A program made the translations under genes and the position numbers. From Pelotomaculum thermopropionicum SI (GTDB lineage: Bacteria; Bacillota; Desulfotomaculia; Desulfotomaculales; Pelotomaculaceae), in contig AP009389.1 of the NCBI GenBank assembly GCA_000010565.1, positions 1,054,001-1,118,000 on the forward strand: a stretch of DNA of 64,000 nucleotides, written 5' to 3'. Positions 23,058-49,461 of the stretch are shown here, in pieces. Under the pieces are notes generated by a model that made no database searches, was not told the origin of the DNA, and saw only the letters and a list, made by a program, of their open reading frames with translations. Positions within the stretch are counted from its first letter, which is position 1. The number at the start of each line of letters is the position of its first letter.

Positions 23058-23507
23058 GTGCGGGCGGTGGTACAGAGAGTTGCTCGCGGTTCTGTGACGG
23101 TTGAAGGCTCGGTGAGAGGTGAGGTGGAACGCGGGCTGGTCGTCCTTTTAGGCGTCGGCCGCGGCGACACCGACGACGATGCCGGGTACCTGGCCGATAA
23201 GGTTGCCAATATGAGAATATTCGAGGACGGGCAGGGCAAAATGAACCTTTCCGTCCTTGACGTAAAAGGTTCCGTTCTGGCCGTGTCGCAGTTTACCCTT
23301 TACGGCGACTGCCGGAAGGGCAGGCGGCCGGGTTTTTCCGGGGCCGCCCCGCCTGAGGAGGCCCGCCGGCTGTTTGAATTATTTGTGAAGGAACTGGAAA
23401 AATACGGGTTAAAAGTGGCCACAGGTGTTTTTCGCGAACACATGACCGTGGAAATAATAAACGACGGACCTGTGACCTTGCTTCTTGACAGCAAAAAAAA
23501 TTTCTGA
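23058..23507 (+). CDS. dtd: D-aminoacyl-tRNA deacylase
   Basis: 149 residues. Dtd removes D-amino acids from tRNA. The cross-subunit Gly-cisPro motif is seen in [10 protein letters not shown] near the C-terminus, and the SQFTL(Y/F)GD motif is [17 protein letters not shown] at about 75-91. GTG start after GAGGGGG (SD), 15 bases after relA. The relA-dtd-MBL hydrolase order is common in Firmicutes. Confidence 0.97.
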
Positions 23508-23528
23508 AGACGGAGGTATCTGTTAGAG

Positions 23529-24152
23529 GTGATTTTTGTAGGATTTCCTGTGGGTATGATGGAGTCGAACTGCTACATAATAGGATGCGAGGAGACCAGA
23601 GAGGGGGCCGTGGTCGATCCCGGCGCCGAGGCGGAAAAAATTTTAAAAAAGGTTGAGGAGCTTGGCTTAAAGATAAAGTACATAATTCTTACGCACGGCC
23701 ACATCGACCATATCGGCGCCCTGGCGGGAGTGCAGCAGGCTACCGGGGCGCAGGTGTTAATCCATGCCGAAGATGCCCCGATGCTTACCGACGCCCGGAA
23801 AAACCTTTCGATGTATGTGGGGCCCAATTTATCTTTAAAACAGGCCGACCGCCTTCTTCAGGAAGGGGACATAATTAGTGTAGGCAAAATTGCCATCGAG
23901 GTAATTCATACTCCCGGGCACACCAGAGGCAGCATCAGCCTGAAATGCGCGCCGGACATCATACTTACCGGAGACACGCTGTTTGCCGGCTCGGTAGGCC
24001 GTTCCGATTTTCCCGGCGGAAGCCACAGCCAGCTTATCGCTTCAATAAAAAATAAACTGCTGAAGTTCCCTCCCGGCACCGGTGTTTACCCGGGCCACGG
24101 GCCGAAGTCGACCATAGGCGAGGAAAAGCTCTATAATCCATTTTTAGGGTAG
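23529..24152 (+). CDS. MBL-fold metallo-hydrolase (YqgX/glyoxalase II-like)
   Basis: 207 residues of the metallo-beta-lactamase fold. The metal motif is LTHGHIDHIGAL (HxHxDH), followed by HTPGHTRGS and TGDTLFAGSVGRSDFPGG, with the last His in YPGHGPKSTIGEE. This is the YqgX-type small hydrolase often annotated as glyoxalase II-like; substrate unproven. GTG start at 23529, AGGTATCTGTTAGAGG upstream as a weak site. It ends before the T-box region. Confidence 0.93.
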   Translation: MIFVGFPVGMMESNCYIIGCEETREGAVVDPGAEAEKILKKVEELGLKIKYIILTHGHIDHIGALAGVQQATGAQVLIHAEDAPMLTDARKNLSMYVGPNLSLKQADRLLQEGDIISVGKIAIEVIHTPGHTRGSISLKCAPDIILTGDTLFAGSVGRSDFPGGSHSQLIASIKNKLLKFPPGTGVYPGHGPKSTIGEEKLYNPFLG

Positions 24153-48086: not shown

Positions 48087-48854
48087 ATGATTGTGCGTGG
48101 AGAGCAAATCAGGGCGCTGCGGGAAGAACGGGGCTACACCTTGCAGGACCTGGCCAGGCGGACAAATTTGTCCTTGTCTTATTTGAGCGAGATTGAAAGG
48201 GGTTCAAAACGTCCGTCTCTGAAAACCATTGACAAGCTGGCCGCCGCATTAAACGTGGCCAAGGCCCAGCTAATTAAGGGGGACGTGACCGATTCCGGAC
48301 TTTCTCTGGGGGATAAAATCAGAATGCTGAGGGCCGAGAAAAATATGTCCCTGCAGGAGCTTGCCCAGGCTTCAGGCATTTCCCTCTCGTATTTAAGCGA
48401 GATTGAGCGGGGAACGGTGTACCCTGCGCTGACCACCTTGAAGCGCATTGCGGCGGGGCTGTCGGTGCCGCCGGCGGCTTTGATCGGGCACGAGACCACG
48501 CTGGGGTGCAAATTGAGGGCGCTGCGCGAAGAGTACGGGTTGACCCAGGCCCAACTGGCTTCTATGGCCGGCGTGACGGCCGGCCTGATCGGGCAAATCG
48601 AGCAGGGCAAGGTTCAGCCTTCTCTTAAAACCCTGGAGAAAATAGCCGAGGTGATGGGCGTTACCCCCTGTTACTTCATTATGGAATCCGGCGCGGTGGA
48701 TCAGATGCTGAGCGTAATGAACCCCGAAGTAAGGGATTTGCTGATGCACCCCAACGTCCAGTCGGTTTTAGGCCTGGTCAGTAACCTGAACGAAAAGGAG
48801 CTTCAATTTATCCTCAACTTTATAAAGCTTTTCAAGAAGTCCGAACTGAGCTAG
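48087..48854 (+). CDS. Triple XRE-type HTH regulator
   Basis: 255 residues. Three tandem XRE/Cro-type helix-turn-helix domains at about 5-65, 75-135 and 139-195: IRALREERGYTLQDLARRTN, then IRMLRAEKNMSLQELAQASG, then LRALREEYGLTQAQLASMAG, each followed by an SYLSEIERG or GLIGQIEQG recognition element. A C-terminal helical region (about 200-255) may dimerise. Three complete DNA-binding units in one chain is unusual; no target is known. ATG start; TATAAT at 48055-48060 lies upstream without a good -35. It is followed by a SHOCT protein after 16 bases. Confidence 0.92.
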   Translation: MIVRGEQIRALREERGYTLQDLARRTNLSLSYLSEIERGSKRPSLKTIDKLAAALNVAKAQLIKGDVTDSGLSLGDKIRMLRAEKNMSLQELAQASGISLSYLSEIERGTVYPALTTLKRIAAGLSVPPAALIGHETTLGCKLRALREEYGLTQAQLASMAGVTAGLIGQIEQGKVQPSLKTLEKIAEVMGVTPCYFIMESGAVDQMLSVMNPEVRDLLMHPNVQSVLGLVSNLNEKELQFILNFIKLFKKSELS

Positions 48855-49126: not shown

Positions 49127-49152
49127 AAGGCCCACCTGTAGCAGTGGGCCTT
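49127..49152. terminator. Terminator between convergent SHOCT and glutaredoxin genes
   Basis: AAGGCCCAC (49127-49135) pairs with GTGGGCCTT (49144-49152). It lies between convergent genes and could act on either strand. Confidence 0.75.
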
Positions 49153-49154
49153 GC

Positions 49155-49388
49155 TTATGAAAGCAGTTTTTCCAGTTCGCTACGGTTAAATCCAACCACC
49201 ACTTTATTGCCCACCGTAATTGTCGGCACGGCCAGCCGGCCGGTCTTTTTCAGCATTTCCTCCCTGGCCTTTTCGTCCTCCGCAACATTCAGCTCTCTGT
49301 AGCTTATTCCTTTTTGTGAAAGAAACTCCTTCACATGGCTGCAGTGCGGTCAGGTGGGGGTGGTGTAAACCGTGATGTTGCGCTCCAT
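49155..49388 (-). CDS. Glutaredoxin-like selenoprotein (in-frame TGA at the active site)
   Basis: A frame of 77 codons plus stop from ATG 49388, with AAAGGAGAG well placed upstream, reads through one TGA at codon 13 (49352-49350). It translates to MERNITVYTTPT, then TGA, then PHCSHVKEFLSQKGISY, ELNVAEDEKAREE, GRLAVPTITVG (cis-Pro) and VVVGFNRSELEKLL. TGA occupies the first Cys position of the CxxC motif, giving U-P-H-C. A hairpin 14 bases after TGA resembles a bacterial SECIS. The family is small glutaredoxin/NrdH-like redoxins that reduce disulfides. As selenocysteine it would be a rapid redox protein; if TGA is a plain stop the gene would give only 12 residues. The sequence of the whole fold is intact around the TGA, which favours recoding. 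Confidence 0.85.
49315..49335 (-). promoter_or_regulatory. SECIS-like hairpin
   Basis: On the minus-strand RNA, UGUGAAGG and UCUUUCACA form a stem of about 8 bp (one G-U) with an AGUU apical loop holding the GU expected of bacterial SECIS elements. The loop G is 23 bases after the UGA, within the usual range for SelB binding. Confidence 0.6.
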
Positions 49389-49461
49389 GTCCGCTCTCCT
49401 TTTTTCCCTTATTGTCTGCAGGAGCAGGAAAAAATATGCGGCCCGCCTGCTCATCCGCCAT

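Follow-up and report, generated by a model that had tools for sequence, protein, structure and literature searches.

Glutaredoxins with a UxxC motif, which contain the rare amino acid selenocysteine (Sec), have been on record since about 2006. We presume that the solved structures 7c10, 7c12, and 7c13 belong to the Sec glutaredoxin of Alkaliphilus (Clostridium) oremlandii. For Moorella thermoacetica, Geobacter sulfurreducens, and Alkaliphilus metalliredigens, glutaredoxin selenoproteins were predicted from a UGA codon, a bacterial SECIS element, and the existence of cysteine-containing homologs (PMC1794560); Pelotomaculum does not feature in that paper. A further source lists a UxxC glutaredoxin, with a biochemical reference, among selenoprotein families, and gives the A. 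oremlandii protein as both biochemically and structurally characterized (Kim 2011 and Lee 2014, via PMC13188914). Sec glutaredoxins are therefore an established family, and the novelty implied by a first-pass annotation of the gene described here was overstated. Our literature search found no paper that names this gene of the anaerobic bacterium Pelotomaculum thermopropionicum.

The gene occupies positions 49155–49388 on the minus strand of a 64,000-nucleotide stretch of the P. thermopropionicum SI genome (hereafter, the window), and encodes a glutaredoxin-like protein of 77 amino acids. An ATG and a strong ribosome-binding site had been noted for it, and both are indeed in place: the start codon (49388–49386) lies 7 nt beyond a Shine-Dalgarno AGGAG (49396–49400), and similar sites are located ahead of most orthologs. 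The frame ends at a TAA (49157–49155), directly followed by a terminator-like inverted repeat, AAGGCCCAC...GTGGGCCTT, without a clear T run (49127–49152, minus strand). As had been claimed, a TGA (49352–49350) takes the place of the first cysteine of the CxxC motif at codon 13 and is followed by PHC, so that the N-terminus reads MERNITVYTTPT-U-PHC when the TGA is translated as U. The complete translation is MERNITVYTTPTUPHCSHVKEFLSQKGISYRELNVAEDEKAREEMLKKTGRLAVPTITVGNKVVVGFNRSELEKLLS. It contains the glutaredoxin motifs U13-P-H-C16 (the codon for C16, the presumptive resolving cysteine, is at 49341–49343), the cis-Pro A-V-P-T, and the C-terminal V-V-V-G-F, the latter two also as originally described, and all are conserved among the orthologs. 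The read-through protein matches Pfam Glutaredoxin (PF00462) over residues 5–64 with 71.7 bits (cut-off 22.9), the TGA being inside the match. It also exceeds the curated cut-offs of two NCBIfam models, TIGR02196 (YruB-family glutaredoxin; 97.3 bits vs. 88.55) and NF041212 (Uxx_star; 68 bits vs. 66). With a UxxC motif, the protein has both redox residues, whereas UXX-star family 1 is given as UxxT in PMC13188914.

The closest solved structure is glutaredoxin 7c10, in its TCPHC form (phmmer E-value of 1.7e-19, residues 2–76). The two proteins have in common the Sec or Cys at position 13, the PHC, a VKEFLS helix, the cis-Pro VP, and VVVGF. However, in our phylogenetic tree 7c10 groups not with the clade of the window protein, but with a second UPHC clade in the same bacterial class, which shares about 40% identity with that protein and in which U and C alternate (U in L090–L096 vs. 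C in L097). Some proteins of the second clade (L091, L093, L095, and L096) are also extended at the C-terminus, and the extension has a CxxC-like motif.

We searched 113 genomes of this class in all six frames and obtained matches in 89; almost all of the close matches contained exactly one internal TGA. The TGA is found at the identical codon in 47 distinct orthologs from several families of the class, all of which also have a cysteine at the position of C16. These observations bear on the possibility that the glutaredoxin gene is in decay and the TGA a true nonsense mutation. The frame is, after all, interrupted, and a similar second copy elsewhere in the genome could render the window gene redundant. 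Nevertheless, the orthologous frames are open past the shared TGA, the second copy contains the TGA too, and either side of the codon is conserved and under strong purifying selection, where decay had been named as grounds for rejecting a selenoprotein. Downstream of the TGA, dN/dS between the window gene and its Pelotomaculum relatives is just 0.06–0.07, and pN is far below pS, which shows that the gene is not decayed; pN is also lower than pS upstream. Because the TGA is conserved and dN/dS downstream is low, we consider the pseudogene explanation refuted, with virtually no chance of being correct.

An in-frame UGA does not by itself fix the amino acid that is inserted, and the codon might be read as another residue (tryptophan, or one carried by a near-cognate tRNA), or be merely leaky, without the involvement of Sec machinery. 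Against this, the only exchange observed at the position is with cysteine, which is what the first-pass annotation had suggested looking for. Cysteine is encoded at the exact Sec codon in more distant homologs, namely those of Patescibacteria, two archaeal MAGs, four members of one family (f16), and genome G111, and in one close relative, Pelotomaculum sp. PtaU1.Bin035 (G094). None of the homologs compared has tryptophan at this position, and none of them lacks a residue there. In the ortholog of PtaU1.Bin035 (L026, 5001–5228; also L067), TGT replaces TGA while the SECIS hairpin described below is wholly intact. This could reflect a recent Sec/Cys switch that left a remnant SECIS, or a sequencing error in the MAG; remnant SECIS elements have been described for other families (PMC1794560). 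An 80-row tree requires about six changes between U and C, at least three of which are forced by well-supported branches; the tree is based on few columns, many of its forks are weak, and it leaves the direction of the changes unsettled. In Desulfofundulus-type loci, although not in the window, a thioredoxin gene adjoins the Sec glutaredoxin gene in convergent orientation (L031, 5344–5661; L032, 5315–5632; L033, 5349–5666). In addition, a Peptococcaceae-type Sec glutaredoxin is located on a contig labelled Actinobacteria (L034, 489–713), but the coordinates on this contig are the same as those of G028, a genome of the class studied here, and the Actinobacteria title is therefore probably wrong.

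Also weighing against insertion of another amino acid is the complete Sec machinery of the genome, which comprises a single contig of 3,025,375 bases. Profile searches identified selA (620 bits), selB (380 bits), and selD (402 bits), each above its cut-off, and a tRNA-SeC (selC) with a TCA (UCA) anticodon is present, so that the predicted Sec capability of the organism was borne out for all four genes. The SelD gene (1935066–1935989) agrees with the coordinates reported for P. thermopropionicum SelD, 1934961–1935986 (PMC2432076), and has a TGA of its own, in frame and within the classical CAGU motif. SelD is thus a selenoprotein, UGA must be decoded as Sec for at least one more gene of the genome, and the CAGU motif provides independent evidence of UGA recoding. 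We also considered whether SelA and the UGA form occur together in genomes of the class, but rejected this as evidence, since SelA is nearly universal there (107 of 113 genomes) and the comparison has no discriminating power. Given the machinery, the exclusive exchange with cysteine, and a conserved SECIS-type hairpin past the UGA, we attach next to no probability to a non-Sec reading of the codon.

The hairpin, a predicted bacterial SECIS element of 9 bp at 49335–49315 on the minus strand, has the sequence UGUGAAGGA-GUU-UCUUUCACA. It starts 14 nt past the TGA, as had been noted together with its GU-containing loop, and the GUU loop itself (49326–49324) is 23 nt from the UGA. Among the 47 orthologs, the loop is GTT in 43, GTA in three, and TTT in one, with G as its first base in 46. 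Synonymous codons within the hairpin are fixed, where usage elsewhere in the protein is mixed (the sequences are related, so these counts are not independent): Val+6 is GTG in 47/47 orthologs, compared with 38% of Val codons elsewhere; Glu+8 is GAG in all 46 orthologs that have Glu, compared with 26%; and Leu+10 is CTT or CTC in 47/47, compared with 24%. Ser+11 is TCN in every one of the 47. Mean pS is 0.33 in the hairpin codons vs. 0.75 past the hairpin. In the upper stem, four pairs are standard in 47/47 orthologs and two further pairs in 42/47, and because the stem is nearly invariant, it displays little true covariation. The lower stem is looser; positions 14 and 34 pair in 13/47, and many of the sequences allow an alternative register in which a U is bulged. 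Cysteine homologs from other lineages do not keep the fixed codon pattern. Folded as a lone sequence, the hairpin is ordinary (z = −1.27; 19 of 200 shuffles were equally good), and an Rfam search of the locus at a relaxed threshold returned no family, and just two chance matches. The case for the hairpin is therefore comparative rather than energetic, and the frozen codons, set against mixed usage elsewhere, mark it as the predicted SECIS element. Together, selABCD, the U/C exchange, the purifying selection around the TGA, and the conserved hairpin all support the Sec-using redoxin proposed at the outset. On this sequence evidence, we are nearly certain that the locus is a functional selenoprotein gene, in which SelB-dependent insertion of Sec at UGA codon 13 would yield a 77-residue U-P-H-C glutaredoxin.

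The second UGA-containing copy is located at 2491171–2491401 of the contig (G000:C1; L021, 1501–1731). It is 81% identical to the window gene, with the TGA and the same hairpin, and sits in a different neighborhood with a GNAT-like gene ahead of it. Two copies of this close type were not found in any other genome among the 113 of the class, and the second copy is apparently specific to this genome. The window gene itself stands alone. Downstream, on the opposite strand, are genes which, from reading their sequences, encode a penicillin-binding protein, a U32-type peptidase, and a helix-turn-helix (HTH) protein. These neighbors are kept as synteny rather than as an operon, and are on the other strand, so we rejected an operon-based assignment of function. 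In several relatives, the glutaredoxin gene is also syntenic with a gene (window 48087–48854) whose product has three HTH repeats in succession and a shared tail. Elsewhere in the window (23058–24152), a D-Tyr-tRNA deacylase-like frame is closed by a TGA, beyond which an MBL-fold-like one runs on without a change of reading frame; these are probably just adjacent genes.

We envisage SelB, along with Sec-tRNA(Sec), binding to the hairpin just past UGA codon 13 and Sec being inserted at this codon, giving a 77-residue protein with a thioredoxin fold and a U-P-H-C active site. By analogy with the family, the U13 selenolate would attack disulfides, or similar oxidized substrates, leaving C16 to resolve the intermediate. 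Re-reduction is probably performed by a thioredoxin reductase-type system, rather than by glutathione. The genome encodes TrxB (399.5 bits), and a profile search for PF04262 found no glutamate-cysteine ligase of that type for glutathione synthesis; the presence of the former and absence of the latter make a thioredoxin-type reductant the likelier one.

With regard to substrate, the Sec redoxin might serve a specific selenoprotein partner instead of general disulfides. The precedent is the A. oremlandii glutaredoxin, which is reported to reduce a selenoprotein MsrA, going by a title cited in PMC13188914 (its reference 85). We think a specific partner unlikely, given that the window gene has no operon partner, the conserved cell-wall and HTH genes beyond it being on the other strand, and that MsrA of any kind was not found in the genome (no match to PF01625, a profile that matched in 12 of 14 control genomes). 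MsrA was consequently rejected as a candidate, and its absence is a second difference from the A. oremlandii system. A more elaborate version, in which two diverged copies of a glutathione-independent Sec glutaredoxin act with a dedicated partner other than MsrA, strikes us as quite improbable; were it true, thermophilic syntrophs would have a selenium-dependent thiol relay that has not yet been described.

Our preferred reading, a Sec glutaredoxin, makes the window gene a real further member of a known family, and leaves the understanding of selenoproteins unchanged. Its value lies in showing that a gene which annotation can easily miss, because the TGA splits its frame, is real, and in extending the family by a set of Sec glutaredoxins that is well supported and spans the lineage. 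The close relative in which UGU stands for UGA next to an intact hairpin is, unless it reflects a sequencing error in the MAG, a helpful case, provided by nature, of a recent switch between Sec and Cys.
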